This document shows, one piece after another, positions 21,552-52,532 of a stretch of 64,000 bases of DNA. The stretch lies in contig NZ_CP073710.1 of the NCBI RefSeq assembly GCF_021184045.1, positions 1,064,685 to 1,128,684 on the forward strand. The letters are read 5' to 3'. The notes below the pieces were generated by a model. It made no database searches. It saw only the letters and a program-made list of their open reading frames with translations, and had not been told where the DNA came from. The position numbers were made by a program, and so were the translations under genes. Source of the DNA: Methanococcoides orientis (GTDB lineage Archaea > Halobacteriota > Methanosarcinia > Methanosarcinales > Methanosarcinaceae). Position 1 is the first letter of the stretch; the number at the start of each line of letters is the position of its first letter.

Positions 21552-24500
21552 TTATCTCATCTGTTCATCTTCTTCATCCTTCCTTCTCTTCCAGAGAACG
21601 AAGAGGAAAATTCCCAGAATTCCTGCGATCACAGGAAGCAACCACATTGAACTTGTAAATCTTTCTTCTGTAGAATCACCTAAATGTCCACTGTCGGTTG
21701 TGGTGTCAACATCCTCACTTTCCACAGGGAACATTGCATCCATACCAAATGGCAGCGCTGCTACTGCGAACTCTGAGAATCCCGGAGTCCTCACTGTGAA
21801 GTAATAATAGTCTTTATCCACTGAAGAGGAAACAACTTCAAGCATTTCCCATTCAACATACTCAGCGCCGCAGTGAGTCACAGTTGTGGTGGTTGGATCA
21901 AGTTCATTCTGCTCATACCATGCTACAGGAACACGGATGTGGATCAGTGCACTTTCCGTGCTTCCCGGACTACTGGTGTCAATATTGATGTATCCATAGA
22001 CACGAGCTCCATTGCCTACTGCAAATGATATGTCAGCAGGTTCTTCCTAAGAGGATGATGAGCTCTGAGTGATGGTCACATCCATGTCATCGACATCCCT
22101 GCCCAGATTAATGTCCACACCGGTGACCATACATCCGGCAGTTTTGAGCTGGTCAAGTGTATCGATCTCAACGGTATCTCCTGACATGACATCTCCCACA
22201 TCAAACTCTCTGGAAGCCTCAAGTGCTGAGCAGGCAGCTTCATTTTCCTGCTTTTCCTTCAGATCCTGGAAGTAGTAGTAGTTTGGAAGACCGTTGTCAT
22301 CAGATGATCCACCCCCGGTGCTTGTTTTAACAGTTGTGAAGTTACTGATCTGGGAAGAGTTGTTGAAACCAAAAATGTCGTAGCTGACTACCTTATAGTA
22401 GTACAGTGTTTCATCCTGAAGTCCGGTTAGCATGATACTGTGATCTGTTCCAAATACTGCTTTTGAAGCATTCATAGAGACATTTGAATCGAGACCATAG
22501 TATACCGTGGAATTGGCAGCTTCATTAGTCTTCCATGAGATTGTGGCAGACCTGTCTGTCACCTGTGATGCGGTCACATTGGTTATTTTCATATCGATTG
22601 CATCAATACCATAGGCAATAGGACCGATCGGAACAATATTACCACCAAGATCCTCAACAGTCGCATTCAGATAATACATTCCGGATTGCAGTGATGTGAA
22701 GTTCACAGAAAGACTGCCGGGGTATGATGTGGAATTGAACAATCCTGTACTGTTGTAAAGGTAGATAGTAACATTCCTTATGCCCATATTATCAGATGCT
22801 GTTACATTGGCAAATACCCAGTCCTGACTGAAATTACCTGAAGGTAGCACATCATCATTGAATACAATTACCGGATCGGTTGTATCAAGCAGGATAGATC
22901 TTGTTTCAGTTTCATTGGTGTTACCGGCATAATCCCAGACACTTGCGTTCAGCTGGTAGTAATCATCAGCAAGACCGCTGAAAGTAACGGAATGAGTAGG
23001 CTCAGCACTGATGCTGGAATCAACAACTCCACTGCTGTTGTACAGGTAGATTCCGGAAGCGTTCAGCCACATGTCACTCACGCTTATGTTACCAACAATG
23101 TAGCTCTGGCTGAAATTGCCTGCATCAGTTGTCTCATCATTGAAATCGATCGCAGGTTTAGCAGTATCCAGTGTGATCTCCAGAGTAGAGGTAGTGTTGG
23201 TGTTACCTGCAAGATCAACTACGGTTGCATTCAGGTAATAGACACCATCAGCAAGACCTGTGAATTCGTTGGAAAGGTTACCATTACCTTCGGTTGTACT
23301 GGAATCCACAAGTGAACTCTCATTGTACAGGGATATTGTAAGACTGGAATAGCCGAATAAATCGAAGGATGTAACGTTAGCAAAGATACTGGTATGACTG
23401 AAGTTACCTTCAGCAGTTGTATCCTCGTTGAATACAATTAACGGATCGGTTGTATCAAGCAGGATAGATCTTGTTTCAGTTTCATTGGTGTTACCGGCAT
23501 AGTCCCAGACACTTGCATTCAACTGATAGTAACCATCAGCAAGATCGCTGAAAGTAACGGAATGAGTTGAATCAGCACTAATGCTGGAATCAACAAGTCC
23601 ACTGCTGTTGTACAGGTAGATTCCGGAAGCATTCAACCACATGTCACTCACACTTATGTTACCAACAATGTAGCTCTGGCTGAAATTGCCTTCATCAGTT
23701 GTCTCATCATTGAAATCGATCGCAGGTTTAACAGTATCCAGTTTGATCTCCAGAGTAGAGGTAGTGTTGGTGTTACCTGCAAGGTCAGCTACGGTTGCAT
23801 TCAGGTAATAGACACCATCAGCAAGACCTGTGAATTCATGAGAAAGGTTCCCAAGACCAGTGGTTGTACTGGAATCCACAAGTGAACTCTCATTGTACAG
23901 GGATATTGTAAGACTGGAATAGCCGAATAAATCGAAGGATGTAACGTTAGCAAAGATACTGGTATGACTGAAGTTACCTTCAGCAGTTGTATCCTCGTTG
24001 AATACAATTACCGGATCGGTTGTATCAAGCAGGATAGATCTTGTTTCAGTCTCATTGGTGTTACCGGCATAGTCCCAGGCACTTGCATTCAACTGATAGT
24101 AACCATCAGCAAGATCGCTGAAAGTAACGGAATGAGTTGAATCAGCACTAATGCTGGAATCAACAGGTCCACTGCTGTTGTACAGGTAGATTCCGGAAGC
24201 GTTCAGCCACATGTCACTCACGCTTATGTTACCAACAATGTAGTTCTGGCTGAAATTGCCCTCATCAGTTGTCTCATCATTGAAATCGATCGCAGGTTTA
24301 GCAGTATCCAGTGTGATCTCCAGAGTAGAGGTAGTGTTGGTGTTACCTGCAAGATCAAATACGGTTGCATTCAGGTAATAGACACCATCAGCAAGACTTG
24401 TGAATTCGTTGGAAAGGTTACCATTACCTTCGGTTGTACTGGAAGCCACAAGTGAACTCTCATTGTACAGGGATATTGTGAGGCTGGAATAGCCGAAAAC

Positions 24501-27500
24501 ATCGAAGGATGTAACGTTAGCAAAGATACGGGTCTGGCTGAAGTTACCTTCAGCAGTTGTATCCTCGTTGAATACAATTACCGGATCGGTTGTATCAAGC
24601 AGGATAGATCTTGTTTCAGTCTCATTAGTGTTACCGGCATAGTCCCAGACACTGGCATTCAACTGATAGTAACCATCAGCAAGATCGCTGAAAGTAACGG
24701 AATGAGTTGAATCAGCACTAATGCTGGAATCAACAACTCCACTGCTGTTGTACAGGTAGATTCCGGAAGCATTCAGCCACATGTCACTCACGCTTATGTT
24801 ACCAACAATGTAGCTCTGGCTGAAATTGCCCTCATCAGTTGTCTCATCATTGAAATCGATCGCAGGTTTAACAGTATCCAGTGTGATCTCCAGAGTAGAG
24901 GTAGTGTTGGTGTTACCTGCAAGATCAACTACGGTTGCATTCAGGTAATAGACACCATCAGCAAGACTTGTGAATTCGTTGGAAAGGTTACCATTACCTT
25001 CGGTTGTACTGGAATCCACAAGTGAACTCTCATTGTACAGGGATATTGTGAGGCTGGAATAGCCGAAAACATCGAAGGATGTAACGTTAGCAAAGATACG
25101 GGTCTGGCTGAAGTTACCTTCAGCAGTTGTATCCTCGTTGAATACAATTACCGGATCGGTTGTATCAAGCAGGATAGATCTTGTTTCAGTCTCATTAGTG
25201 TTACCTGCATAGTCCCAGACACTGGCATTCAACTGATAGTAACCATCAGCAAGATCGCTGAAAGTAACGGAATGAGTTGAATCAGCACTAATGCTGGAAT
25301 CAACAACTCCACTGCTGTTGTACAGGTAGATTCCGGAAGCATTCAGCCACATGTCACTCACGCTTATGTTACCAACAATGTAGTTCTGACTGAAATTGCC
25401 CTCATCGGTTGTCTCATCATTGAAATCGATCGCAGGTTTAACAGTATCCAGTGTGATCTCCATAGTAGAGGTAGTGTTGGTGTTACCTGCAAGGTCAACT
25501 ACGGTTGCATTCAGGTAATAGACACCATCAGCAAGACCTGTGAATTCGTTGGAAAGGTTACCATTACCTTCGGTTGTACTGGAATCCACAAGTGAACTCT
25601 CATTGTACAGGGATATTGTGAGGCTGGAATAGCCGAAAACATCGAAGGATGTAACGTTAGCAAAGATACTGTTCTGACTGAAGTTACCTTCAGCAGTTGT
25701 ATCCTCGTTGAATACAATTACCGGATCGGTTGTATCAAGCAGGATAGATCTTGTTTCAGTCTCATTAGTGTTACCGGCATAGTCCCAGGCACTGGCATTC
25801 AACTGATAGTAACCATCAGCAAGATCGCTGAAAGTAACGGAATGAGTTGAATCAGCACTAATGCTGGAATCAACAGGTCCACTGTTGTTGTACAGGTAGA
25901 TTCCGGAAGCGTTCAGCCACATGTCACTCACGCTTATGTTACCAACAATGTAGCTCTGGCTGAAATTGCCCTCATCGGTTGTCTCATCATTGAAATCAAT
26001 GAACGGAGCATTGTTGTCTATTGTTACACCGATAACATTGCTTGAACAGAACTTTTCAGCTGTTTCATTCTCACATGCTACCCAGGTAATATTGTAGATA
26101 CCATCTGCAAATTGGGTACTATCGAAAGTGACAGAAGAAACATCCTGAGGGAGAGAAATATATCCACCAACATCGCCTGTGGTGTTGCTCAGGCTGATAT
26201 TGGACACGAAAGCATCCTCGTTGTTATCGGTTACAGATGCATTCACGTAGAAAGTACCGGAAATATAAGCATCCGGTTCAGGTGCAATTATAGCCACATG
26301 CGGTGCTGTATTAATAAAAGTGATATCAAATTCGCTAATCTCGAAACCAGCGAGTACTTCATCGATCTGTTCAAGAACCTCACCTTCTTCCACAGTGACC
26401 CAGAGGTTGAAATTGTATGTTTCACCCGGTGTCAGACCACCAGTGGTGTAGTAGATGAAAGCGTTACCAATATCATCATCTGACATAAGGTATCGCTCCT
26501 TCTTTGAATAACAGTCAGGAACCTGAGTACAGTTGATGAAATATGTCGGTGTCTGAGAGCCGGAAAGTGAGCTGAAAGAGCTGGTCATTGCGAGGAAGTA
26601 ACCGGTACCATTATACACAGTCACACTTTCGGTTGCCAGTAGATGCGTACCAGCTGGAAGCTGGAGATCATTTGAAGCATCTGTACCCTCGTTGGAAACA
26701 GAGAAGCTACTTATCTCATATGCTCCCGAGTCTTTCAGGTCAAAGTCAAGTACCTTTCCAACAACGTTCGTATTCACACCGCTGCTCTTTGAGAAAATGC
26801 TGTAATTGGTTGATGAGGTCTCAACCTGATCTACGAATATACCGGAAACAGAGCCAACGTCAAAGGCACTTCCCTGATGTCTTGACCAGGATGTTGAAGT
26901 GTCACCTGAGTTGAGATCCTTATAGTAATATTGTAACACTGATTCCAGATCAGAACTCAGTGAGTATTTACCTATCACAAAGGTACCGGATTCAACACTC
27001 TTTTCCACAGACCAGTTAAATGCGTCATTAAATGTAGTAGAAGAGTGACTATAGCTCACATCCGTAAGCTGCTCACGAACCTGGTTTCCTTCTGCCGTAA
27101 CGAACTTCAAGAGAGTTATGTCAATATCATTAACCTCTACCGCACCGTTGCCTGTCCTGTTGAACTCATAAGTAATATTATGTGTCCCGGAAGAAGGAAT
27201 AGTGAAACTGATTGGCCTTGTTCCTGTTGAGCCTTCGTCAATATTTGACCTGTCTTTACTGAGAGACCTCATCTTTTCTTCAAGCACAGGTTCTGAGGCA
27301 CCATCAACATAGATCCTGACCCATACATCATTATCCAGAGCTCCGGTCAGTTTCACGATATTCATTGTGCTCATAAGGGTAAGGTCAACATTATCACTTG
27401 AAGTATTGAATTCCACATTTATGCCTTCAACAAATTCCGAGCTGGCGAAAGTGAAATCAGTTTCATTGAGAGGAACTGCGAGGAGGGAAGTCAGATTTTG

Positions 27501-28490
27501 TACATCTTCACTAGCACTTACCGGAGGTAGCTGCAATAAGTACGGATAACCACTGTTAATACTGTCATCCATGGACCAAATTGAAGAGAAATCCCAACCA
27601 ACAAATGTGGATTGTGTCTTCATTTCAGCTGTTGTCTTACCTGTGCCTACAGGACTTGTAGATTGACCAGAGGTTTGAGTATCCCAGTAACTATTAGTGG
27701 AAATTAACTCAAACATATCATATCCAACAAGACCACCGACAGAATCAGAACCAGTGACATACCCGGCAGAATAACTATTCAAAATTTCGCCATCCCAGCA
27801 TTCTCCAACGAGACCACCTATAATAGAAATACCAGTAACATTGCAAGTGGAATAACTATTGGAAACGGTTTCAAAATCATTATACCCAAGAAGTCCACCG
27901 ACATCATAGTCACCAGAAACATCTCCAGTGGAGTAACTCTGATCAACAGAACCTAAATTTACTCCAACAAGACCACCTACATAATCAAAACCAGTAATAT
28001 TGCCATTGGAATGACTTTGAATAACAGAACCATCATTCCATCCAACAAGACCACCGACATAATCAACACCAGTAATGTTAACATGCTCAAGCCAAACATT
28101 ATTAAGTTCTGAACTTGAACCCACATATCCAAAAAGTCCGATATAACTTGTGGATGGCCTATTTATATGAAGCCCGGTGATCACATATCCGCTACCATTA
28201 AAGCTACCTGTGAAATGACTTGAGGAACTACCTATTGGCACAAATCCGGCATTACTATTCCAGCTAATAGTTTCACTGGCATCGATATCATTAATCAATA
28301 TGTAGTTTGCTGACAAGGCAGTACTCATGTTCTGAAGCTGCTCGATCGTAGAAATCTGATATGGGTTTCCGGCAGAACCGTCCCCGACTGCAAATGTGGC
28401 TGCACTCGCAGGAGATGAGATCATCATACCGATTAATATCAGCAATAAACTAAGAAAAAGTATATTATCCGTTCTTTTTATAAATACCAT
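21552..28490 (-). CDS. Giant surface adhesin-like protein with one in-frame TAG (possible pyrrolysine)
   Basis: Reading the TAG at 22047-22049 as a residue gives 2,312 residues ending at TAA. Order: signal peptide (ending near SSPASA), GLUG repeats (about 80-300, GLVG...SYSTGDVSG), an extracellular region (330-820), six 190-residue double Ig-like units (about 827-1970), an Fn3-like domain (1975-2065), a PGF-pre-PGF domain (about 2075-2255, ending RTPGFSEFAVA), and a membrane helix with basic tail (2280-2312). The TAG falls inside the PGF-pre-PGF domain, after a Ser run. All 164 following codons stay open and complete that domain and the anchor. Without readthrough the protein (2,147 residues) would lose its membrane anchor. 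Neither product is proven. Strict standard translation would call 22047-28490. Confidence 0.75.
22600..26010 (-). repeat. Six tandem 570-bp units encoding paired Ig-like domains
   Basis: Near-identical DNA recurs with an exact 570-bp period (unit boundaries near 26000, 25430, 24860, 24290, 23720 and 23150). Each unit encodes two alternating 95-residue domains. Type A begins DFNDETTDEGNFSQ and type B begins VFNEDTTAEGNFS. The first five units are almost identical. In the sixth, type B has diverged (VFNDDVLPSGNFSQDW). Many N-x-S/T sequons imply heavy glycosylation. Confidence 0.9.
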
Positions 28491-31053: not shown

Positions 31054-33330
31054 TCAGTCAAACTTTTCAGAATATCCTGCAACAACTGCCTGCCCCAAAG
31101 AAACCCCTCCATCACCACATGGGATTCTGTTATGGGTGATAAATTCAAGACCTGCATCCTTAACAACTTCACAGACACGTCCTGTTATGTGTTCGTTATA
31201 AGCAACTCCCCCACTTAGTCCCACAATGTCAACATTCCTTTTCTTAGCAGCTGATATTGCAAGTTCTGCAACCCCGATGGCAAGGGTATCCTCTACAGAA
31301 TATGCCAGATCACAAACTGCATGTGTATCAAGCCTTTCGTAGAGACCATATAACAAACTGGTAGTATCAAGCACTCCTCGTTTGCAAACGACAGGCAGAT
31401 CCAGATCAAGCACGCTCTTTTTTGCAACTGATTCCAGCTTCATTGCAGGCTCACCCTGGTAACTGCGATAATGTGAAACGCCAAGAAGTGCTGCTGCACT
31501 ATCAAGTACCCTTGCAAAACTGCTCGTTCTAACCAGATTTACATCCTTTTCCAGTTGCTGCAATACAATGTCACGTTCTGGCTCACCATGCTTGAAGTAA
31601 AGAGGAAGCTCCCTCAATTCTTTCGCTTCAAGAACATCATGTAGCATCCCCAAAACCATGCGTGAAGGATAGATCGCAGCCGTATCCCCACCGGGCATTG
31701 GCTGCTCCATAAGATGAGCAACTCTTTCATAGCCAGAATATGTGGCTTCAAGGATCTCTCCCCCCCATATTGTTCCATCTTCCCCGTAACCAGCACCATC
31801 AAGAGCTATACCGATGATCCTTGAATCGGCAGACAAGAGATTATCAACCATCAGCGAAACTATGTGTGCATAATGATGTTGCACGAAGACCGTTTTATTT
31901 CCACCTTGCTCCTGTGCGAAACGTGTGGTGTTGAATTCCGGATGCAGGTCACAACCCCATCGATGAGGGTTGATCTTTGTCAACTGTTCTAAATTGGAAA
32001 CGACCTGCTTGTGATACTGAGAAGTCTCAAAGTGCCTTGTGTTCCCGATATACTGGGAGATATATGCACTTTTCTCCTTTGCCAGGGTAACAGTAGTGTT
32101 AAGTTCGGGACCAGAACCAATCGCCGGTTCTATTGAAAACGGAAGCTCTATCCTCTCAGGTACAAAACCCCTCGATCGCCTTATGAAAGCTTTTCTACCA
32201 TTAACGAACCTGATAACCGTATCATCTGTCCTGTTCCTGATAACATAGTTGTGAAGCAGATAATGATCTGCGATTCTTTCGAGATTCAACAATGCCTCCT
32301 CATTATCGGTCACCATCGGAAGACCCGGAAGATTTGCAGATGTCATTACATAAACATCCGTATCACTATTATCGAACAGAAGGTGGTGTGTGCCTGAATA
32401 AGGTAGCATCACACCTATGTTATGCAGATCGGGAGCAATGTGATCAGATAATGCAAGATCATCACTTTTGTCCAGAACAACTATTGGACGCTGCCTGCTG
32501 AGCAATAGGGAACTTTCATCTGCATCGATACTGGCAAAAGAACATACCGTTCCAACATCTTTTGCCATCACCGCAAAAGGCTGAGCAGGACGATCAAGAG
32601 AATTCCTGAGCTTCAGGACAGCACTGTCTGAAGTAGCATCACAGACAAGATGGAAACCACCGTATCCTTTGACTGCAACAATTGATCCATCATCTATGAG
32701 TTCAGCACATCTGATAATGGCATCATTTCCGGATGCAATAACATCACCATTACAATTGGTAAGTGAAAGGACAGGACCACAATCCGGACAGCAGGTGGCC
32801 TGTGCATGGAATCTTCTGTCAGACGGGAGTTTGTACTCAAGACCACACTCCTGACACAGGGGGAATTCGACCATACTGGTATTTTTCCGATCAAAGGGAA
32901 GAGAGCTTACCAGGGAATATCTCGGACCACAGTTCGTACAGGAAGTAAATGGATAGTGATAGCGCCTGTCCTTACGATCATACATTTCCCGCAGGCAATC
33001 GGAACAGATCGCATTGTCAGGGGGGATAATGGAACTGGTAGTATCATCCAGTTCGCTGTCAAGTATCGAGAAAACGGAAAAGCCCGATACAGGGAAAAAC
33101 TTCGTTCTTACTTGGTCAACAAACGATAGAGGTGGTTTTTTAGTATGTAGCTCGTGGAGAAAACGGTCGATATTCTTTTTGTCTCCTTCTGTGACTATCT
33201 CTACGTCATTGCCTGTGTTCTTCACATAACCGCAGAGCCCGTTCTCTGTCGCGATGTGATATACGAAAGGGCGAAAACCAACACCCTGTACCACCCCGCT
33301 AACATTGATCATCCTGCATTGAGTTTGCAT
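31054..33330 (-). CDS. hypF: Carbamoyltransferase HypF
   Basis: 758 residues from ATG 33330, which has AGGT nine bases upstream. The open frame extends 20 codons further but that stretch is not family-like. Domains: acylphosphatase (VSGVVQGVGFRPFVYH), two zinc fingers (CSDCLREM...CTNCGP and CQECGLEY...CCPDCGP), a YrdC-like domain, and a Kae1-like C-terminus (VQHHYAHI, ALDGAGYGEDG, GLSGGVAYNEH). HypF makes the carbamoyl group that HypE converts to the cyanide ligand of the NiFe site. It is separated from the other hyp genes by the hydrogenase block. Confidence 0.95.
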   Translation of the reverse strand: MQTQCRMINVSGVVQGVGFRPFVYHIATENGLCGYVKNTGNDVEIVTEGDKKNIDRFLHELHTKKPPLSFVDQVRTKFFPVSGFSVFSILDSELDDTTSSIIPPDNAICSDCLREMYDRKDRRYHYPFTSCTNCGPRYSLVSSLPFDRKNTSMVEFPLCQECGLEYKLPSDRRFHAQATCCPDCGPVLSLTNCNGDVIASGNDAIIRCAELIDDGSIVAVKGYGGFHLVCDATSDSAVLKLRNSLDRPAQPFAVMAKDVGTVCSFASIDADESSLLLSRQRPIVVLDKSDDLALSDHIAPDLHNIGVMLPYSGTHHLLFDNSDTDVYVMTSANLPGLPMVTDNEEALLNLERIADHYLLHNYVIRNRTDDTVIRFVNGRKAFIRRSRGFVPERIELPFSIEPAIGSGPELNTTVTLAKEKSAYISQYIGNTRHFETSQYHKQVVSNLEQLTKINPHRWGCDLHPEFNTTRFAQEQGGNKTVFVQHHYAHIVSLMVDNLLSADSRIIGIALDGAGYGEDGTIWGGEILEATYSGYERVAHLMEQPMPGGDTAAIYPSRMVLGMLHDVLEAKELRELPLYFKHGEPERDIVLQQLEKDVNLVRTSSFARVLDSAAALLGVSHYRSYQGEPAMKLESVAKKSVLDLDLPVVCKRGVLDTTSLLYGLYERLDTHAVCDLAYSVEDTLAIGVAELAISAAKKRNVDIVGLSGGVAYNEHITGRVCEVVKDAGLEFITHNRIPCGDGGVSLGQAVVAGYSEKFD

Positions 33331-33458
33331 CTTTAATATACCTGGTTCAAGATAGTATAAATAGGCCTCTGTGACGTTACTTTGGATCAAATTAATCGTA
33401 AAACTTTACCGTCATCAATAACAATTATTTTTAAGTATTGTTAAACTTATTTGTAAAT

Positions 33459-34739: not shown

Positions 34740-35237
34740 TTATTGCGATGCCCCGGGTATTTCCTCAATAATATACGAAATTACCCTGTCCACCGCAGCA
34801 AGAACCTCCGGACTGAGATCCATTGATAGATCTTCCCTTATCCCGCCGACCTCTATCCCGAAAACAATGATATCTGGAAAATCCTGAACGTGTTTTCCAA
34901 TGGTAAGGATATCAGAAATACCGATATCATGGGCTGAGAATATCCCAGCGTATTCATGGTCTTTATTCAAAAGATCATCAAGATCTAAACGAAGAATTGA
35001 ACCTCTTTTCGTACTTCCACTGCCAACCATTGAATCAACAATAATTGCCTTATCAACACCATCCAGCAGGTTCAGGATATCAAGGCCACATACACCAGCA
35101 TCCAGTATATCAATATCCTCCAGAATACCAGACTCTATTTTTTCGAGAGCTTCGACAACCCTCACGCCAACACCATCGTCCCCCATTAGAATATTTCCAC
35201 ATCCGATTATGCGAACCGATGGATTTAATTCAGACAT
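34740..35237 (-). CDS. Hydrogenase maturation protease (HyaD/HycI family)
   Basis: 165 residues. The family start IIGCGNILMGDDGVGVRVVEAL contains the first Ni-binding acidic residue (Glu or Asp in GDDG). ILDAGVCGLDILNLL supplies the second Asp, and SAHDIGISDIL the His. The enzyme checks Ni insertion and then clips the C-terminal tail of the large subunit after His in DPCxxCxxH. It lies 55 bases downstream of the large-subunit gene on the same strand, and the tail it should remove (16 residues, beginning TIDLTGK) is present. Confidence 0.9.
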   Translation of the reverse strand: MSELNPSVRIIGCGNILMGDDGVGVRVVEALEKIESGILEDIDILDAGVCGLDILNLLDGVDKAIIVDSMVGSGSTKRGSILRLDLDDLLNKDHEYAGIFSAHDIGISDILTIGKHVQDFPDIIVFGIEVGGIREDLSMDLSPEVLAAVDRVISYIIEEIPGASQ

Positions 35238-35292: not shown

Positions 35293-37080
35293 TCACAGCA
35301 GTCGGAATGTACCAGGAAGGTTCTTCCCTGTCAGGTCTATGGTGTGGACAGCACACGTGATACACGGATCATATGACCTCCCCACATGTAAAATACTGGT
35401 AGGATTACTGAAATCGACTCCCAGCCAGTTATCAACTGCAGATATCCTGCACCCCACCAGTGCCTGCTCAAGAGGACCTGGCACCCCTTCACTGTCCCTG
35501 GGACTCAGGTTCCAGGCACTTGGGGTAACTATCTGGTAATTGGCGACCTTTGAATCATCATCTGTTATGAGCCAGTGCCCCAGTGCACCCCGGGGAGCTT
35601 CACAAAGACCCATTCCTCTGGAATCCCTGCCCATTGACATATTAATATCAACACGGAATCTTCCATTTGGATCAAGGTCTGTTGTTATCCACTTGATCAT
35701 CTCATTGGTGACAATGAACAATTCCTGCATGCGTGCTATCATTCTGGTAAAGCTGTTAAAAGGAGAATATCCTTTTTCCCGGAACATTTGTACAAGACCC
35801 GTGACAAGTGGCTCTTTCATAATGAGCAGACGGGATAACGGACCAACCTCGCATGGGATGCCATCATAACGTGGAGCTTTAGACCATGTATATTTTTCCT
35901 CAGAAAAGTTATCATAATTGATCCGGTCGGGATCTGTAAAAGGTTCGGTTACTCCTTCATATGGATGTCTTTCGCCTTCATAATCATCATAGAAAGCATG
36001 TTTGACGTTTTCTGTGACCTTCGTTGAATCAAAATTATGATACTCTAACGAGCTGGTCATAAAACCGGAAGTCTGGAAGCGATCGCCGGAAGGACTTGTC
36101 GGATCATAGCCTTCATGGTCAACGCTATAGAATCCGCCATATGAGAGTAAGCCTATTTTTGAAAGATCATTGTAACCACCCATTTTATCGTGCTTGAGAC
36201 TGATCGGAAGTCCCAGCAGTTCTTCACCGATAAGTTCTGAGCCGAATGCGGAATATAGCTCTACATCCCCCCATCCATTTGAACGTGAAAGGTCATTCTT
36301 CTGAAGTGACATTTCAGTTATTTCGTTAAGGTGTTCAATAAAGAAGTCTACAGCTTTCTTTGGAGAAGACGCCTTGTAAGTGTTCTCGATCCAATCCTCA
36401 AAAGGTATGCCGATTACATTTTTATTTAAGAAATCGACAACTTCAGACATGATCGATGACAAGGTTTGAATGTCTGAAGTTGTTGGATTGTTTGTAACTC
36501 CCCCGGGATAGATTACGGTCTGGTGGGGCATTTTCCCACCGATCACAGCACCGGCATCGTGTAGTCTTTTCTTCATCGGGATAACGCCAACATATGAACT
36601 ACCGGGGGGGATCGGTTCTCCACCGATCTTATAGCTGATCGGGGCAAATCTTCCAAGCAATTCTTTCCAGACAGAAGCTCCAAGGTCACCAAAAGTGGAC
36701 ATTACATTACCATAGGCAGGATTTGCAAGGTCCGGAGCCCACAGGATATAGAAATGGAGTAAATGATTTGAGACCGTATTCAGACCCTGATTTATGTTCC
36801 TTGCAACAAGTGCATCCTTTGGAACCGACTCAGCAACGCCAAAAAGCTCATCAAGCGCATTGACCGCAGCTATTGAGTGTGCTACGGGACATACACCGCA
36901 TATCCTCTGGGATAGAAGAATTGAATCCCTCGGGTCCTGACCACGATATATGCGTTCAAATCCCCTGAAGATCATATTGGAACTTCTGGCTTCCTTTATG
37001 ACACCGTTCTCATCAACCTCAGTATCCAACCTTAGGGGGCCTACGACCCTTGTAAGGGGATCAACTGTTACCCGAACCAT
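35293..37080 (-). CDS. [NiFe]-hydrogenase large subunit, group-1 type
   Basis: 595 residues. The two Ni ligand pairs are intact: RICGVCPVAHS (Cys61, Cys64) near the start and DPCITCAVH (Cys573, Cys576) at the end, followed by a cleavable 16-residue tail. Typical group-1 segments include FRGFERIYRGQDPRDS, HLLHFYILWAPDL and APRGALGHW. Length is within the usual range for uptake hydrogenases. The start overlaps the small-subunit stop (TAATG), so the two subunits are translationally coupled. It oxidises or evolves H2; electron partner not evident because no cytochrome b or F420/ferredoxin subunit is next to it. Confidence 0.93.
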   Translation of the reverse strand: MVRVTVDPLTRVVGPLRLDTEVDENGVIKEARSSNMIFRGFERIYRGQDPRDSILLSQRICGVCPVAHSIAAVNALDELFGVAESVPKDALVARNINQGLNTVSNHLLHFYILWAPDLANPAYGNVMSTFGDLGASVWKELLGRFAPISYKIGGEPIPPGSSYVGVIPMKKRLHDAGAVIGGKMPHQTVIYPGGVTNNPTTSDIQTLSSIMSEVVDFLNKNVIGIPFEDWIENTYKASSPKKAVDFFIEHLNEITEMSLQKNDLSRSNGWGDVELYSAFGSELIGEELLGLPISLKHDKMGGYNDLSKIGLLSYGGFYSVDHEGYDPTSPSGDRFQTSGFMTSSLEYHNFDSTKVTENVKHAFYDDYEGERHPYEGVTEPFTDPDRINYDNFSEEKYTWSKAPRYDGIPCEVGPLSRLLIMKEPLVTGLVQMFREKGYSPFNSFTRMIARMQELFIVTNEMIKWITTDLDPNGRFRVDINMSMGRDSRGMGLCEAPRGALGHWLITDDDSKVANYQIVTPSAWNLSPRDSEGVPGPLEQALVGCRISAVDNWLGVDFSNPTSILHVGRSYDPCITCAVHTIDLTGKNLPGTFRLL

Positions 37081-38159
37081 TATTGGCCAGTCTCCTTCTT
37101 TTTTATACTTTTCATATTTTTCTTACTTGAATACAGAGGTCTGGCATTATCAGGAAAATCCGGTTCCACACATGCAATACATGGGGAACCCGACTGTACA
37201 CAGTAACTGTGCCCATCATTCCATTTGCGAAGTGCACAGTCAGCATGAGCAAGGAAGGCCTGACATCCCATTTTCAACAGGCATTTTTCCCCACCAGCAC
37301 AACTATCAAATTCTTTGTTTTTGAAGAAATCCTTACGGGGACAGTCCTTATGGACGTTATGATCCGGTGGGAAGAAGACCTTTGGCCTGCCAAACTCATC
37401 CAGTACCTCAGGCAGATCATCAGGTACCTTGACATTACCGGATATAATTGCACTTAACGTAAAGATAATCCAGTCAGGATGAGGAGGACAGCCCGGGATG
37501 TTAATCACAGGTTTGTCTATCCCGAGAAGTTTCAGCATGCCTTTTGATGGGTCCTTCTTCGTGAAAGCGACACCCCTGTAATCCAGAATATCAACTATGT
37601 CGCTATTTGCTGTATTAATACCTCCATATGCAGCACAGGTCCCCACAGCTATTATAAGGTCAGCATTCTGGGCTGCCTTTTTGAACATCTCCTTGCTGCT
37701 ACGGTTTCCTGACATGAAATATTTTCCTGAACCTTCAGGCCCGTTTGCAATTGCCCCCTCAACCATCAGGATGTAGTTTCCCCTTTCACTGATCTCATCG
37801 AGCAGGATCTCAGAATTAAGTTCTGATGTATTGGCAGGCTCACCATCAACAAATAGTCCCTGGTGTGCAAGGAATGCTTCATGCCGTTCCAGATCGATGT
37901 TGAGTATCTCAAATGCCTTCAGGAGATCCGGATTGGAAGCATCCAGTAAAGATTCAGAACAGCCCGTACATTGGGCACCCTGTATCCACAGGACATGGGT
38001 CACAGGAAAGTCAGGATCATCCGAAGTATAGTTCTTATAGTTTTCCAGAAGCTTGAAACTCCCGCCCGACCCTCTTGCCTTAAGGAACTTATGCCAGTCC
38101 ATCCTTAAGAAATCAAGATCATTTACACTACTATCTGAATTTGTATTTCCCTCACTCAA
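37080..38159 (-). CDS. [NiFe]-hydrogenase small subunit lacking Tat signal and membrane anchor
   Basis: 359 residues from TTG 38159. An in-frame stop lies just upstream and no ATG precedes it. Cluster ligands are typical of group 1: CTGCSESLL (Cys64, 67), GTCAAYGGI, PGCPPHPDW, then HKDCPRKDFF, CAGGEKCLLKMGC, and CALRKWNDGHSYCVQSGSPCIACVEP in separate stretches. Unlike VhoG-type small subunits there is no twin-arginine leader (N-terminus is polar, with DWHKFLKARG around residue 21) and the C-terminus ends in a Lys-rich tail with no hydrophobic helix. The enzyme is therefore predicted to be soluble and cytoplasmic. Confidence 0.9.
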   Translation of the reverse strand: MSEGNTNSDSSVNDLDFLRMDWHKFLKARGSGGSFKLLENYKNYTSDDPDFPVTHVLWIQGAQCTGCSESLLDASNPDLLKAFEILNIDLERHEAFLAHQGLFVDGEPANTSELNSEILLDEISERGNYILMVEGAIANGPEGSGKYFMSGNRSSKEMFKKAAQNADLIIAVGTCAAYGGINTANSDIVDILDYRGVAFTKKDPSKGMLKLLGIDKPVINIPGCPPHPDWIIFTLSAIISGNVKVPDDLPEVLDEFGRPKVFFPPDHNVHKDCPRKDFFKNKEFDSCAGGEKCLLKMGCQAFLAHADCALRKWNDGHSYCVQSGSPCIACVEPDFPDNARPLYSSKKNMKSIKKKETGQ

Positions 38160-38301
38160 GTGACCATCTCATTATGAATGATTTTTAAGATCGATACTGA
38201 TAGTCCCCCACTAAAATTGATCGATAAAACCCATCTCACTATAGTAGTTATTTTACTTCCAGATATAAATAACAATCCACATGATTAGTAGCAGGCGACA
38301 C

Positions 38302-38332: not shown

Positions 38333-38563
38333 ATGTGCATAGCCATTCCGGGGAAAATAACTTCGATCCTGAATGAGAACACGGCTACTGTTGATATCGG
38401 GGGTATAAAGAGAGAGGTGAACCTTGATCTTATAGGGGGAGCTGATAGTTCGCTCATAGGCAAGCATGCACTTGTCCATGTTGGGTATGCTATTTCATTG
38501 ATCTCTGATGAAGAAAGTGAAGAAGTTCTCAAACTACTAAGAGATGTGATGGATCTCAGTTGA
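38333..38563 (+). CDS. hypC: Hydrogenase assembly chaperone HypC
   Basis: 76 residues. The family N-terminus MCIAIPGKI has the essential Cys2, and GKHALVHVGYAISLI is the conserved second motif. HypC carries the Fe(CN)2CO unit with HypD and hands it to the large subunit. It heads the plus-strand operon hypC-hypD-hypA-hypB-hypE, divergent from the hydrogenase structural genes. Confidence 0.95.
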   Translation: MCIAIPGKITSILNENTATVDIGGIKREVNLDLIGGADSSLIGKHALVHVGYAISLISDEESEEVLKLLRDVMDLS

Positions 38564-38567
38564 TATT

Positions 38568-39659
38568 ATGGAAAATATTGAACAAAAGCTGATATCAAGG
38601 ATCAATGAACATGCCACACCTCTTCGAATAATGCATGTATGTGGCACTCATGAAAGAACCATATCAAAATATGCAATTCGTGATATAATCTCTGATGACG
38701 TTCAGTTATTAAGCGGTCCGGGATGCCCTGTTTGTGTAACCCCTGTAGAGGACATCGACTTTGCAATTGAACTGGCAAGGTCAGGAAAGGTGATCACTTC
38801 CTTTGGGGATATGATGAGGGTACCGGGAACTACGGGAAGTCTATTCGATGCAAGATCCGATGGATATGATATTCGCATGGTCTACAGTATCGATGATGCC
38901 ATAAAGATCGCGAAAGATAACCCGACTCTGGAGATTGTATTTTTCGGGATCGGATTTGAGACCACTGCACCCTCCAATGCTGCTGCATTATTAAGAGGAG
39001 TGCCTGAGAACTTCAGCATTCTCACATCACATAAACTCATGCCTCCGGCAATGGAGATCCTCACACGAGATACAAATGTGGACGGATTCCTGGCACCAGG
39101 ACATGTATCAACGATCATTGGAACTGAAAAATATGATCAAATTTCAGAAAAAGGGTTTCCAATCGTAGTAACGGGTTTTGAAGCTCTTGATGTTCTCCTC
39201 GGCATAGCCATGGTCCAGAACCAGCTCGAAACCGGCAGGTCCTGTGTGGAGAACGCATACCCACGCTGTGTGAATGTCGAGGGAAACCTCAAGGCCCGGG
39301 AAATGTTGTATCAGGTATTTAAGAAGACCGATAGCAAATGGCGGGGAATTGGCATGATCGAAAATTCAGGTCTTGCTTTGAAAAAAGAGTTTGACCAATT
39401 TGATGCTGTAAACGTTCATGCTGATATCTATAAGGAACTTCATGAGAAAAGAGCTTCAGAGAGCGATAATGTTGATGGTGAAAATCGTCTTTATGAAGAA
39501 TGTATCTGTGCCGAAATATTGACAGCACGAGCTCAGCCTCCCCAATGCCCTCTCTTTGGTAGAAGATGTTCACCTGAAGCTCCGGTCGGCCCCTGCATGG
39601 TAAGTCTGGAAGGCACATGCTATAACTGGTACAAATATAGACATAATAAAGGAATATAA
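38568..39659 (+). CDS. hypD: Hydrogenase formation protein HypD
   Basis: 363 residues with the HypD signatures MHVCGTHE, LLSGPGCPVCVTP (Cys pair for Fe handling), FFGIGFETTAP and FLAPGHVSTI. The C-terminal 4Fe-4S cysteines are in YEECICAEI, PPQCPLFGRRC and GPCMVSLEGTC. It assembles the Fe(CN)2CO group with HypC. It begins five bases after the hypC stop. Confidence 0.95.
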   Translation: MENIEQKLISRINEHATPLRIMHVCGTHERTISKYAIRDIISDDVQLLSGPGCPVCVTPVEDIDFAIELARSGKVITSFGDMMRVPGTTGSLFDARSDGYDIRMVYSIDDAIKIAKDNPTLEIVFFGIGFETTAPSNAAALLRGVPENFSILTSHKLMPPAMEILTRDTNVDGFLAPGHVSTIIGTEKYDQISEKGFPIVVTGFEALDVLLGIAMVQNQLETGRSCVENAYPRCVNVEGNLKAREMLYQVFKKTDSKWRGIGMIENSGLALKKEFDQFDAVNVHADIYKELHEKRASESDNVDGENRLYEECICAEILTARAQPPQCPLFGRRCSPEAPVGPCMVSLEGTCYNWYKYRHNKGI

Positions 39660-39660
39660 T

Positions 39661-40044
39661 ATGCATGAGTATTCACTTGCCTGTGAGATCTTTGAAACTG
39701 TGATAGCAACAGCAGATCAGAATAAAGCATCAGCAGTAAATTCCATAACACTGGAAATTGGCAGGCTAACACATGTGAATCCTGACCAGTTATTGTTCTG
39801 CCTTGATGTTCTGTCCGGGGACAGTATTGCCGAAGGTGCAAAGGTCAATGTGAATTTCGTTTCACCGTGTGGCGAGTGTGAATGCGGATATAAAAGAGAT
39901 AGCGGAGTTCCAGACAATGCTTGTTGTGATGATCAGCAATCCCTTTACGAATATGCATTAATGACCTGCCCGGTATGCGGGAAGTTGCTTCAGCTGGTTG
40001 GTGGAAATGAGCTCATAATTCAGACGATAGATATCGACATATGA
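39661..40044 (+). CDS. hypA: Hydrogenase nickel incorporation protein HypA
   Basis: 127 residues. The family start MHEYSLACEIFETV gives the Ni-binding His2-Glu3. The zinc-binding Cys pairs are CGEC and CPVC, separated by a longer insertion than in bacterial HypA (about 35 residues, with CDDQQSLYEY inside), as in several archaeal forms. It delivers nickel to the large subunit with HypB. The gene starts one base after the hypD stop. Confidence 0.93.
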   Translation: MHEYSLACEIFETVIATADQNKASAVNSITLEIGRLTHVNPDQLLFCLDVLSGDSIAEGAKVNVNFVSPCGECECGYKRDSGVPDNACCDDQQSLYEYALMTCPVCGKLLQLVGGNELIIQTIDIDI

Positions 40045-40065: not shown

Positions 40066-40719
40066 ATGCTGATGCACGTGGTAAATGTCAACAAAGATGT
40101 CATGAAAGCCAATAATGAGCTTGCACATAGCAACAAGAAGCTTTTGATCAAAAACAGGGTTTTCGCCATGAATATCATGGGAGCCATAGGTTCCGGGAAA
40201 ACAACCCTTATTGAAGAGGCGATCAATGCGCTCAAAGACCGTTACAGAATTGCGGTTATTGCAGGTGATGTGGTAGCACAGATGGATGCATCCCGTTTTG
40301 AGAAGCTGGGAGTGAAAACAGTAGCTGCAAACACTGGCCGTGAGTGTCATCTGGATGCAAAACTTGTGGAAAGATCAATGGAAAATATCGATCTTGAAGA
40401 TATTGATATCCTATTCATCGAAAACGTAGGGAATCTCATCTGCCCTGTGGACTATAAACTTGGTGAGAACGTCCGTGTTGTGGTCGTAAGTGTAAGTGAG
40501 GGTGATGATACTGTTTTAAAACATCCGATGATATTCAGGACCTCTGATCTTGCCATCGTGAACAAGGTGGACATTAGTGAAGCTGTATCTGCCGATCCTT
40601 CCAAAATGAAAGCTGACATTGAAAAGTTAAATCCATCAATTCCCATACTCCTAACCTCTGGAAATGACAGGATAAGCATTGATAGATGGATAGAGTACAT
40701 CGAATCCTATCTTGAATAA
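40066..40719 (+). CDS. hypB: Hydrogenase nickel incorporation GTPase HypB
   Basis: 217 residues. The GTPase P-loop GAIGSGKTTL (about 41-50), the metal-site residues in NTGRECHLDAKLV (Cys-His), the Walker B ENVGNLICPVD and the guanine motif NKVD are all present. No His-rich nickel-storage stretch is seen at the N-terminus. It drives nickel transfer with HypA. AGAGAGG lies before ATG. Confidence 0.95.
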   Translation: MLMHVVNVNKDVMKANNELAHSNKKLLIKNRVFAMNIMGAIGSGKTTLIEEAINALKDRYRIAVIAGDVVAQMDASRFEKLGVKTVAANTGRECHLDAKLVERSMENIDLEDIDILFIENVGNLICPVDYKLGENVRVVVVSVSEGDDTVLKHPMIFRTSDLAIVNKVDISEAVSADPSKMKADIEKLNPSIPILLTSGNDRISIDRWIEYIESYLE

Positions 40720-40746: not shown

Positions 40747-41817
40747 GTGATGATCATGTCAAAAGATAAAGTCATTAGGATGGAACATGGAGCTGGTGGA
40801 GAAACGATGCAGGCACTTATTCGTGAAGTGATCCTCAACAACATAACCAGCAGATCTGCAGGACTTGTGGGTCTTGACGATCTCGATGATGGTGCAACGA
40901 TAAACATTGCAAGTACCATTGCCAATAACAAAAACTCTGATGAGATCGTGATCACTACAGATAGTCACGTGATAAAACCTGCTTTTTTCCCGAATTCCAA
41001 CATTGGCAGGCTTGCTATTTCAGGTACTGTCAATGATCTTGCAGTAATGGGAGCTGCACCCCTTGCCCTTACATGTGCGATAGTTGTACCGGAAGGATTT
41101 GAACTTGATTCTTTTGAGCAAATAATCAGGTCCATGAACGAAACTGCAGAAGAGGTGGGTGTTCCTATCATAACAGGTGACACAAAAACCATCGAGAGAA
41201 ACGGACTTGACTCAATTATAATTAATACTACAGGTATCGGGATCGCGGATGAAGTTATCCGGGACTGTGGGATTTGTCCCGGTGACAGGATAATCCTTAC
41301 AGGCACCATAGGTGATCACGGGATATCGCTCCTGGCCCATAGGGAAGGATTCGATCTTACCACCGACCTGGCATCTGATGTAGCACCTTTGTGGAATATG
41401 ATAAGGTCAGTTATTCCAATACGAACTATCGAAGGCAGGCCTGCCATATCAGCCATGAAAGATCCGACAAGAGGAGGACTTGCAGGCGCACTGAACGAAA
41501 TGGCTCAAAAAAGCGGAACAGGGATCATCATTGAACAAAAGGACCTGCCTATAAAAAGATCAGTATCATCTGCCTGTGAAATGCTTGGGATAGACCCTCT
41601 TGAAGTAGCAAACGAAGGTAAAGCGATCATCTGTGTGAAGGCTGAACATGCAGAGGAAGTACTATCATTAATTCGTCAACATGAGTATGGCAAGGATGCT
41701 GCTATCATAGGGGAAGCAACAGACGAGAATTCAAGTAAGGTTCTGATGAGAACAACAATTGGCAGCATGAGGTATGTAGATACACCTACAGGCGACCTGA
41801 TACCAAGGATCTGCTGA
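40747..41817 (+). CDS. hypE: Hydrogenase maturation protein HypE
   Basis: 356 residues (the ATG at 40753 is an alternative start). It is an AIR-synthase-like ATPase with MEHGAGGETMQALI, LDDLDDGATI, DPTRGGLAGALNEM and the C-terminal PRIC. The terminal Cys carries the thiocarbamate that is dehydrated to thiocyanate for the CN ligands. It works with HypF and ends the hyp operon. Confidence 0.95.
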   Translation: MMIMSKDKVIRMEHGAGGETMQALIREVILNNITSRSAGLVGLDDLDDGATINIASTIANNKNSDEIVITTDSHVIKPAFFPNSNIGRLAISGTVNDLAVMGAAPLALTCAIVVPEGFELDSFEQIIRSMNETAEEVGVPIITGDTKTIERNGLDSIIINTTGIGIADEVIRDCGICPGDRIILTGTIGDHGISLLAHREGFDLTTDLASDVAPLWNMIRSVIPIRTIEGRPAISAMKDPTRGGLAGALNEMAQKSGTGIIIEQKDLPIKRSVSSACEMLGIDPLEVANEGKAIICVKAEHAEEVLSLIRQHEYGKDAAIIGEATDENSSKVLMRTTIGSMRYVDTPTGDLIPRIC

Positions 41818-47262: not shown

Positions 47263-47997
47263 ATGATTGAACATTTGGGTCCAACAAAATCGGTACCTGA
47301 GGATTATGATGCCCCTCTTGCAGAACACTTTGGTGAACTGAGAAAACGGTTATTCGTTGTAGCCATCGCACTTTTTGGTTTAATGATGGTCGCATTCCCA
47401 TTTTCAGAAATAGCTTTGAAGATGGTCTGGGCTAATTTTATACCTCAAAACATAGAAATGTTCGTTTATTCTCCTCTTGAATGGATATTCGCAAAACTCA
47501 AACTGTCTCTTGTGTTTTCTGTTGCATTTACTTTCCCATTGTTTCTTTATGAAATGTTTAAGTTTGCTTCAAGGGGTCTGTATCAGCATGAAAAAAAGTT
47601 TTTTTTGAAAATAGTGCCAGTTTCATTTTTATTGTTTATTATTGGAGGAAGTTTAGCATATTACATTGCACTTCCTCTGATGTTTAAATATATCATTTTT
47701 TATTCCAGTGAAACCGCCATATCTCAAATTTCAGTACAAAGTGTTCTGGCAGCAGTGACAAATATGATATTAGGATTTGGTCTTATTTTTCAAGTTCCAC
47801 TGATAATTGTTTTTGCTATAAAAATGCAAATTGTAAAACTTGAGATGCTTAAAAGAAAAAGGATATTTGTTTATGCAGCAGTGCTGAGTCTTGCTGTTTT
47901 TATGTCCCCTGATCCAACCTTTATTTCACAGATAATAGTTGCTTTTGTTCTTGTGATATTGTTTGAGATTGGTCTTCTAATCGCACGATTTCTGTAA
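47263..47997 (+). CDS. tatC: Twin-arginine translocase subunit TatC (first copy)
   Basis: 244 residues, six membrane helices. TatC marks are the N-terminal HFGELRKRLF and SPLEWIFAKLKLSLVF with the conserved Glu. It recognises the RR signal of folded cargo. The DNA is more AT-rich than the hydrogenase and hdr regions. A second, different tatC lies 5 kb downstream in the same cluster. No ribosome-binding site is seen; the TATA-rich stretch immediately upstream suggests a leaderless start. Confidence 0.9.
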   Translation: MIEHLGPTKSVPEDYDAPLAEHFGELRKRLFVVAIALFGLMMVAFPFSEIALKMVWANFIPQNIEMFVYSPLEWIFAKLKLSLVFSVAFTFPLFLYEMFKFASRGLYQHEKKFFLKIVPVSFLLFIIGGSLAYYIALPLMFKYIIFYSSETAISQISVQSVLAAVTNMILGFGLIFQVPLIIVFAIKMQIVKLEMLKRKRIFVYAAVLSLAVFMSPDPTFISQIIVAFVLVILFEIGLLIARFL

Positions 47998-48213
47998 GGT
48001 CTAGTGATAGCAGTAGATTAAGGCATAAATTATCTAAAAATATTGATATTTTGATTATCGTATTTTTCAATCAGTTTTGTCACAATAGTAGGGTATATAT
48101 ACAAGTTAAGGCATTGCACAATATGTTAGGTGTGCCAAAATTACATTTGGAACTGAAACAAAATATGGTTTACAAATTATACTATATACGCATAAATTAA
48201 CAGGGTGATAAAA

Positions 48214-48531
48214 ATGATAGGTGGATTAGGGTCTACAGAACTTTTACTAATATTTGGTTTGATCGTACTCTTGTTTGGTGCAAACAAACTTCCAGAACTA
48301 GCTCGTTCAATGGGAACATCCATGGGCGAATTTAAAAAAGCACAAAAAGAATCTGAAGTTTCTCTAAAAAAAGCTGAAAAAGAGATTCTTGTCAGTGAAA
48401 ATGCTTCAGATGATGATCCAGGGGTCAAGAAGTTAGCAGAGGATCTTGGAATAAACGTCGAAAGCAGAACAACCGAAGAATTGCTGGACGAAATTCGTCA
48501 TAGTGTAAAAACAACTGCTACTAAAGCATGA
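48214..48531 (+). CDS. tatA: Twin-arginine translocase subunit TatA
   Basis: 105 residues from ATG 48214, with GGTGATA as ribosome-binding site (the upstream in-frame GTG is part of it). Classic TatA: a single helix STELLLIFGLIVLLFGANK, then the amphipathic LPELARSMGTSMGEFKKA, and an acidic tail. It forms the pore with TatC. It is the only TatA in the cluster. Confidence 0.93.
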   Translation: MIGGLGSTELLLIFGLIVLLFGANKLPELARSMGTSMGEFKKAQKESEVSLKKAEKEILVSENASDDDPGVKKLAEDLGINVESRTTEELLDEIRHSVKTTATKA

Positions 48532-48716
48532 ATTGATAATCTTGGAACTGCTCGCTTGAAGTGTTATATGTCAGATCGACGATTAACAGCATTTCGTGAT
48601 CAATAGTAATTCCAATTAAATAATACGATCAATATTTTAAAAATTCAAATAATGCCACAATCAATATTTTATAAATTCAATTTAGGCATAACTAATTTCA
48701 TTCGGAAGGTCTAAAA

Positions 48717-49745
48717 ATGGAACGACGTACTTTCATAAGAAATGCTTCTATCGCGGTTGCTAGTTTATCCGCATTGGGAATCGCAGGAAAGTTTTATTCA
48801 AATACGGCTGATGTAGCTGGAAAAACACTTACGATCTATTCGGGAAGAAAGGAGAAACTTGTAGGCCCACTTATTGAAAAAATAAAACTGGAAACAGGGC
48901 TTAACATACAGGTAAGGTATGGAGGCACTGCAGAACTAGCATCAACAATCTTAGAAGAAGGTGCCAACAGTCCTGCACACATATTCTTCGCTCAAGATGC
49001 AGGTGCTCTGGGTTCACTCAGTAAAGAAGGAAGGCTAATTGAGCTTTCTCCTGATCTACTTGAGCCGGTCGATCCAATATTCCGCTCACCAAAAGATGAA
49101 TGGGTTGGCATCACGGGACGTGCAAGAACCGTTGATTATAATGTGAATCTTGTAAAACCTGAAGAGTTGCCAGATTCTATCTGGGGATTTACCGATCCTA
49201 AATGGGGTGGCGGGAAGATCGGCTGGGCACCAACGAACGGTTCATTCCAGTCTTTTGTCACTGCTCTGAGAGTTCTTGAGGGTGATGATAGGGCAAGGGA
49301 ATGGCTAGAAGCTATACAGGCCAATGATCCACAGGTCTATCCAAAGAATACACCGATAGTCGAAGCTCTTGGTAGGGAAGAGATCCATGTTGGGTTTGTA
49401 AATAATTACTACCTTATGAGATTCAAATCCGATGATCCTGATTTCCCTGTGGAACATCATTATACCAAGAACGATGCAGGATCCATTGTAAATATAGCTG
49501 GTGTCGGTATTTTGGATTCGGTCGAAGAAAGGGAAGTTGCTGAAATATTCATCAAGAGCTTGTTGAGTATGCAGTCACAGCAGTATTTTGCTAGTGAGAC
49601 GTTTGAATACCCACTCATCGATGGGGTTGAGGTAGAAGGCGGTCAGAAGCCACTCTCTAGCATCAACACACCAGATATTGACCTGAGTGATCTAGATGAT
49701 CTTAAAGGCACTCTGGACCTGTTAAACGAAGTGGGAGTACTCTAA
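48717..49745 (+). CDS. Tat-exported periplasmic iron-binding protein (FbpA/FutA-like)
   Basis: 342 residues. The signal ERRTFIRNAS with Arg3-Arg4 is a textbook twin-arginine motif, followed by a mild hydrophobic stretch. The mature part resembles type II Fe(III)-binding proteins: LTIYSGRKEKLVGPLI near the start, GRARTVDYN, and the tyrosine pair in NNYYLM that binds ferric iron. It feeds the adjacent permease and ATPase. It is the only convincing Tat substrate I see in the window, flanked by tatC-tatA on one side and tatC on the other. Confidence 0.9.
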   Translation: MERRTFIRNASIAVASLSALGIAGKFYSNTADVAGKTLTIYSGRKEKLVGPLIEKIKLETGLNIQVRYGGTAELASTILEEGANSPAHIFFAQDAGALGSLSKEGRLIELSPDLLEPVDPIFRSPKDEWVGITGRARTVDYNVNLVKPEELPDSIWGFTDPKWGGGKIGWAPTNGSFQSFVTALRVLEGDDRAREWLEAIQANDPQVYPKNTPIVEALGREEIHVGFVNNYYLMRFKSDDPDFPVEHHYTKNDAGSIVNIAGVGILDSVEEREVAEIFIKSLLSMQSQQYFASETFEYPLIDGVEVEGGQKPLSSINTPDIDLSDLDDLKGTLDLLNEVGVL

Positions 49746-49832
49746 ATTATACATGATCTGCATACGGTAGAGACAAACTAACTTGAGTTTAAACATATCT
49801 TCGGAATAGAATAAATTAGCAAGGGGGTAAAT

Positions 49833-51425: not shown

Positions 51426-51451
51426 TTTTAACAATACTGGAGAAAAAAATA

Positions 51452-52495: not shown

Positions 52496-52532
52496 ATTAA
52501 GAACATAATTATTACAGGTAGAAGTGAGAAAT

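Follow-up and report, generated by a model that had tools for sequence, protein, structure and literature searches.

A leaderless [NiFe] enzyme of the Vht/Vho lineage without the L0 proton-gate motif in Methanococcoides

Does a [NiFe] hydrogenase related to the exported, membrane-bound Vht/Vho enzymes stay inside the cell, and with what parts would it then work? The question is raised by a two-gene locus of Methanococcoides orientis, a methane-making, salt-loving archaeon. The locus lies in a stretch of 64,000 nucleotides (the window; contig NZ_CP073710.1, positions 1,064,685 to 1,128,684) within the complete genome of 2,494,162 bases (G000), and its two genes encode a VhtG/VhoG-like small and a VhtA/VhoA-like large subunit (Table 1). 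An initial annotation had described them as a group-1-type hydrogenase without a twin-arginine translocation (Tat) leader, C-terminal anchor or cytochrome b. According to the available text of PMC9478090, Vht is guided by the twin-arginine signal of VhtG. The presence of VhoA and VhoG without VhoC was published in 2014 for M. methylutens (PMC4239356). No report of the loss of the leader, of the anchor or of the L0 motif of the large subunit was found in the literature searched, whose coverage excluded most subscription papers. These three losses may be new, and that of the L0 gate is the surprise for specialists.

An in-frame TGA at 38171 stands four codons above the TTG start of the small-subunit gene, so that a longer N-terminus is impossible, and no Tat leader was found upstream or in any other frame. 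The N-terminal 14-residue hydropathy maximum was 0.26, where the Tat-type relatives measured gave 1.4-1.9; for the C-terminal tail the hydropathy was -1.41, and most of those relatives reached approximately 1.3-2.3. Neither end of the subunit carries a hydrophobic segment, and the C-terminal membrane helix is absent. The initial annotation was thus correct on both the leader and the anchor, and no upstream start that would supply a real RR leader exists.

The former leader can nevertheless be located. Tat relatives read (M)DFL.MDRRTFLKAVGA.GA.AFL in this region, whereas the clade of leaderless enzymes described below reads DFLRMDWHKFLKAR and lacks the h-region. Alignment columns 22-23 hold R,R in 24/24 Tat rows and W,H in all eight readable clade rows; the contig-end fragment G101, which has no N-terminus, is outside the leader counts, and G034, G054, G054b and G126 (long-branched, or with the large subunit in fragments) were excluded from group-column and ligand counts. 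By this alignment, DWHKFLKARG is homologous to the twin-arginine site itself; WH has taken the place of RR, and the stretch remains under purifying selection. It had been noted that the small subunit has no twin-arginine signal, which holds, and that the resemblance of this stretch was vague, which does not. Over columns 13-30, pairs among six Methanococcoides (without G003) differ by 0 to 2 non-synonymous changes, which argues that the segment was retained for some reason after export was lost; pairs including G003 differ by 4 to 5. An amphipathic N-terminal helix was considered and rejected, its helical moment being no higher than in shuffled sequences. An AlphaFold2 model of the small subunit from a three-row alignment reached a pLDDT of 35 and was not used.

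To place the enzyme, protein searches were made against 60 relatives and then 111 genomes of the family, in 61 of which the small subunit was found. The leaderless enzyme occurs in seven of 11 Methanococcoides genomes, the window's included, and the other six are 80-97% identical to it; among the carriers is G010, which we take to be strain MM1. A second genus, g6, has the same arrangement in G015 and in the contig fragment G101, while a third g6 genome (G028) gave no match. In a table in the accessible part of PMC3017947, strain WeN5 is given vhtGADF but no C, and for this reason g6 is probably Methanosalsum. The remaining Methanococcoides differ: in G009 its place is taken by an enzyme with Tat leader, anchor and cytochrome b, and G004, G005 and G008 have neither hydrogenase nor HypD. 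In trees of both subunits, which were built from archaeal rows only, the nine leaderless enzymes formed one clade with 100/100 support nested within the Vht/Vho enzymes of the Methanosarcinaceae, and the G009 enzyme grouped with those of g4. A single clade among Tat/cytochrome-b enzymes indicates, most simply, that leader, anchor and cytochrome b were lost once in its ancestor.

None of the nine clade loci has a cytochrome b gene beside the pair, whereas cytochrome b adjoins the large subunit in 20/28 other pairs of the tree. A homology search with VhtC found nothing at E<=0.01 in the complete M. orientis genome or in any of eight clade genomes searched, and the same query matched G009, G020 and G029. 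In G000, the Pfam model PF01292 matched no more than two fragments, both weak and below the cut-off; it also misses the known VhtC of G020 and was rejected as an insensitive detector, so that its result is weak evidence on cytochrome b. The statement that the locus lacks cytochrome b therefore stood and could be extended to the genome, and no orthologue with a linked cytochrome b emerged. The companion statement, that Methanosarcina Vho/Vht enzymes have leader, anchor and cytochrome b together, does not extend to every Vht of the Methanosarcinaceae: paralogues in G033 and G122 keep a Tat leader without an anchor or adjacent cytochrome b. For G122_15545 and G126, the lack of an adjacent cytochrome b may reflect the ends of the stretch examined; G076 and G090 were provisionally scored as lacking one too. 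The extra Vht-like pairs of G033 (L079) and G122 (L110) have a polar, Ser/Asp/Arg-rich C-tail and are possibly soluble exterior hydrogenases. Like the clade, they lack the C-terminal helix and an adjacent cytochrome b; unlike it, they retain the RR leader and the L0 sequence EGH and group with the Tat Vht enzymes.

The most unexpected change is in the large subunit. R[IV]EGH, the L0 motif, is near-universal, though outside the formal group definitions, and its Glu serves as proton gate in the [NiFe] hydrogenases studied. In all seven Methanococcoides the motif has become RVVGP, in the two g6 genomes RIGGG, and E13 and H15 are accordingly lost in 9/9 clade large subunits (V/P in seven, G/G in two). 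The comparison set comprised 57 archaeal sequences, namely 27 Methanosarcinales and the best-scoring 30 loci of a phylum-wide search, G126 excluded; it kept the Glu in 56 and the His in all 57. The exception, a Tat-type large subunit in the L105 neighbourhood of G076, reads RIQGH, the same E to Q change as in laboratory gate mutants. Both residues were also kept in all five PDB alignments compared. Among near-universal columns (n=70), only these two were lost in every clade member; A53S, in seven, is conservative, and g6 alone shows H106 to N and the C-terminal H579 to Q plus a few milder changes. The four cysteines of the two CxxC motifs (C61, C64, C573 and C576) are kept in 9/9. The L0 residues are constant within each genus, and in the seven Methanococcoides all variation in the first 20 large-subunit codons is synonymous. 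The initial annotation, whose reading of a leaderless, anchorless group-1/Vht member without cytochrome b is backed by sequence, synteny and phylogeny, had missed the loss of the EGH.

The small subunit is altered next to the clusters as well. All 11 Cys and one His at the Fe-S ligand positions, which we assign to the proximal, medial and distal clusters from known structures, are present wherever readable, and the claim that the metal-ligand motifs match those of membrane uptake hydrogenases is borne out by the complete Cys/His set shared with Vht/Vho. Near the proximal cluster, Tat relatives read W[ILV]HG.ECTGC; both H60 and E63 are Q in 8/8 readable clade rows. Position 287 carries a new Cys (seven clade rows) or His (two), a residue type seen there in 0/24 Tat rows, six residues ahead of C293, presumably a ligand of the distal cluster.

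Pairwise omega within the genus was 0.057-0.155 (median 0.106, 21 pairs) for the large subunit and 0.070-0.150 (median 0.095, 15 pairs) for the small subunit, from which G003 was left out because a TAG cuts its frame. The two g6 large subunits gave 0.11. Medians of the Tat genera used as controls were 0.11-0.21, and clade values were similar or lower. Judged by these ratios and by the retained metal ligands, the enzyme is maintained by purifying selection, re-plumbed and not decaying. A relic on its way to loss is very improbable, since its signs (the patchy presence in seven of 11 genomes, the joint absence of hydrogenase and HypD from G004, G005 and G008, the in-frame TAG in G003 and the highest small-subunit omega in the genus for pairs with G003) meet omega values equal to those of Tat relatives, intact ligands and maturation genes, and a PylS in G003 by which the TAG may be read through. 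That TAG lies in the N-terminal linker of the small subunit of the M. vulcani-like G003 (L067:7560-7870); with PylS present, pyrrolysine may be inserted there, or the gene may be broken. A 51-amino-acid second copy of the large-subunit C-terminus, 92% identical, was seen at a contig end in another genome (G002:C70:5024-5176).

A cytoplasmic member would need another electron acceptor, as first suggested. The window encodes an HdrA-MvhD fusion (HdrA2) and, after it, a polyferredoxin rich in 4Fe-4S motifs (54200-57840), 16 kb from the hydrogenase; the fusion is also present in hydrogenase-free genomes. HdrA2 was found in 12/12 and RnfC in 13/13 genomes searched, those without hydrogenase included, and both HdrA2/polyferredoxin and Rnf were rejected as dedicated partners. 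The pair does not resemble the Mvh type (group 3c): it has a full-length SSU_C domain, the VhuG/FrhG models match weakly and no mvhD is linked.

We favour, at an even chance of being right, a cytoplasmic, low-turnover, H2-reactive heterodimer that uses another proton route and soluble Fe-S carriers. A two-subunit enzyme of the Vht/Vho lineage would have been relocated from the outer face of the membrane to the cytoplasm, a location suggested by the lack of any evident export route for the two subunits. The soluble heterodimer would hold three [4Fe-4S] clusters and a mature NiFe(CN)2CO site, the latter expected because the protease and Hyp proteins are kept for a single hydrogenase, and would react slowly with H2. 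Protons could exit without the Glu gate through the retained Arg497/His106 chain or His68, and electrons would pass from the distal cluster to ferredoxin, perhaps to HdrA2/polyferredoxin, and on to Rnf or Fpo rather than to methanophenazine. It would serve in the cytoplasm as a valve or scavenger for H2 at low flux and would not be an energy-conserving uptake hydrogenase.

The proton route is the critical step. The L0 Glu corresponds to Glu25 in D. fructosovorans, Glu34 in DvMF and Glu28 in Hyd-1, and its role is disputed. In the accessible portions of PMC3325256 and PMC11228991, it is reported as essential in D. fructosovorans (as cited in PMC3325256); in T. roseopersicina it is about half dispensable, E14Q leaving approximately 50% of the activity, with Arg487-Asp103-His104 as the route proposed (PMC3325256); and in E. 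coli Hyd-1 it is critical for one step, E28Q accumulating Ni-R and Ni-C (PMC11228991). The T. roseopersicina result indicates that loss of the Glu is survivable, and Methanococcoides retain R497 and H106, equivalent to Arg487 and His104, along with H68 of L1. Several points weigh against the soluble low-turnover enzyme. If the Glu is as essential as reported for D. fructosovorans, turnover of the enzyme could be blocked; the T. roseopersicina route also needs Asp103, whose equivalent in Methanococcoides is Asn, and it fails for the g6 genomes, which lack both His106 and His579. The three Methanococcoides without hydrogenase possess HdrA2 and Rnf just the same, which rules out a dedicated partnership for both, and no conserved linked acceptor gene was found at the clade loci. 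Localisation, activity and acceptor are moreover inferred from sequence. A wider statement is tentative and in our view somewhat unlikely: that this natural, selected [NiFe] enzyme gave up its Glu gate after moving into the cytoplasm and now either relies on one alternative proton path for H2 turnover or has ceased net H2/H+ conversion, serving as an H2-trapping sensor or acting on another substrate. If true, the enzyme would form a separate functional class inside the Vht lineage, and this in archaea that have been described as incapable of using H2.

Regulatory hydrogenases (RH) are not known to carry a Tat leader. The clade enzyme might likewise be a cytoplasmic H2 sensor that binds and splits H2, stalls for want of a proton gate and signals through its redox state or conformation in the manner of HoxBC/HupUV; this is a serious rival, if an unlikely one. 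The available text of PMC5665086 describes the R. eutropha RH as cytoplasmic, with a cysteine pattern for three [4Fe-4S] clusters like that seen here, slow in turnover and trapped in Ni-C. The accumulation of Ni-C/Ni-R in Hyd-1 E28Q (PMC11228991, accessible portion) suggests that gate loss could produce the same trap, although the altered residues differ, RH having Gln in place of a second-sphere His (PMC5665086, available text) and the clade having lost the L0 Glu. The clade enzyme probably belongs to another lineage, Vht and not group 2, being Vht-nested in trees of archaeal rows that contain no group 2 sequences; no kinase common to the clade loci was seen, the neighbours in other genomes not having been scanned with family models, and the nearest histidine kinase identified in the window is approximately 30 kb away. 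The genome also has no second hydrogenase to regulate.

Slightly less credible is the recruitment of the [NiFe] site for chemistry in which H2 is neither oxidised nor evolved. The clade-wide replacement of two near-universal catalytic residues, constant within each genus, and the further changes of H579 and H106 in both g6 genomes would fit such a shift; the retention of every Ni, Fe and Fe-S ligand together with the protease and a complete hyp set would not, and no candidate substrate or partner gene was found. It is a little more doubtful again that the enzyme sits peripherally on the inner membrane face, reducing methanophenazine or docking to Fpo, Rnf or HdrDE through the N-terminal segment and a basic C-tail. 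The segment is conserved and the tail carries a net charge of +3 to +5 in 8/9 clade rows; the tail of G003, however, is neutral, the helical moment does not exceed that of shuffles, and no quinone-type or cytochrome partner was found.

Compared to the methanophenazine-reducing Vht/Vho enzymes of Methanosarcina, HydDB group 1k, the clade enzyme nests inside their tree with both subunits and has the same Fe-S ligand set and the same maturation genes, and its small subunit is approximately 50-60% identical to the Tat-type enzymes of the family. It differs in lacking the Tat leader, the anchor, VhtC and the L0 EGH, in the replacement of H60/E63 and in the new Cys/His at 287. The best PDB match was the [NiFeSe] hydrogenase of Desulfomicrobium/Desulfovibrio (4kl8/1cc1, E ~1e-47), which shares W[VI]QG and CVEPDFPD and also has no small-subunit Glu; unlike the clade enzyme, it keeps the L0 Glu and His and is periplasmic by its PDB name. 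The engineered gate mutants E25Q, E28Q and E14Q alter the same large-subunit position, but they were made in the laboratory in other enzymes, whereas the clade change is natural, leads to V or G and is accompanied by loss of the second-next His. A natural lineage without the L0 Glu, its neighbouring His and the small-subunit Glu, under normal purifying selection, offers a test case for alternative proton routes. Methanococcoides have been regarded as obligately methylotrophic, with H2 playing no part. For strain MM1, the accessible text of PMC6775961 reports that up to 12% of methane came from CO2 and that H2 was ruled out, no F420-reducing hydrogenase being known. A cytoplasmic H2-reactive enzyme in seven of 11 species-level genomes would reopen the H2 question in Methanococcoides.

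Table 1. Genes and sequence features of the hydrogenase locus (positions in the window)
Feature	Position	Strand	Remarks
Small subunit (VhtG/VhoG-like)	37080..38159	-	359 amino acids; TTG start
Large subunit (VhtA/VhoA-like)	35293..37080	-	595 amino acids; RICGVC and DPCITCAVH motifs intact
Remnant twin-arginine segment	38070..38120	-	Small-subunit residues 14-30, DLDFLRMDWHKFLKARG; WH where Tat relatives have RR
Proximal-cluster segment WIQGAQCTGC	37959..37988	-	Small-subunit residues 58-67
Altered L0 motif RVVGP	37036..37050	-	Large-subunit residues 11-15; replaces R[IV]EGH
Hydrogenase maturation protease	34740..35237	-	TIGR00072, HyaD/HycI type
hypF	31054..33390	-	Downstream of protease
hypC	38333..38563	+	
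hypD	38568..39659	+	
hypA	39661..40044	+	Score slightly below curated cut-offs of two best models
hypB	40066..40719	+	
hypE	40747..41817	+	

The large-subunit ATG overlaps the stop codon of the small subunit, and the pair matched Oxidored_q6 (2.6e-27), NiFe_hyd_SSU_C (7.1e-26) and NiFeSe_Hases (8.2e-85). It is the only hydrogenase of the genome; a second PF00374 match, a 377-amino-acid frame, was read as FpoD. The hypC-D-A-B-E genes lie upstream in divergent orientation, while the protease and hypF share the strand of the pair. The protease gene was present in 9/9 clade loci and hypF followed it on the same strand in all eight that are long enough (as two frames in G002); the G002 and G101 loci are on short contigs of 6.8 and 3.8 kb. 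Only the protease and hyp genes were common to all clade neighbourhoods, and orf153, orf75 and orf194 were rejected as parts of the system, their counterparts being absent from other clade loci.

The Tat system that the initial annotation had placed about 9 kb away with its own cargo is there, with TatC at 47263, TatA at 48205 and a substrate starting with ERRTF at 48717; across 47263-53297, tatA and an ABC transporter whose binding protein has a Tat leader lie between two tatC genes. The Tat/cytochrome-b Vht operon of G009 (L069) likewise has hyp genes next to it, arranged divergently in the same way, and a nearby protein with seven hydrophobic segments is a candidate TatC. Divergent group-1-like pairs were seen in another family of the order (G054, L078; G054b, L108), and one of their small subunits reads MDKQECLDA where RR would be expected. 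Elsewhere in the window (22047-28490), a surface-type protein of 2147 amino acids carries GLUG and Ig-like repeats.

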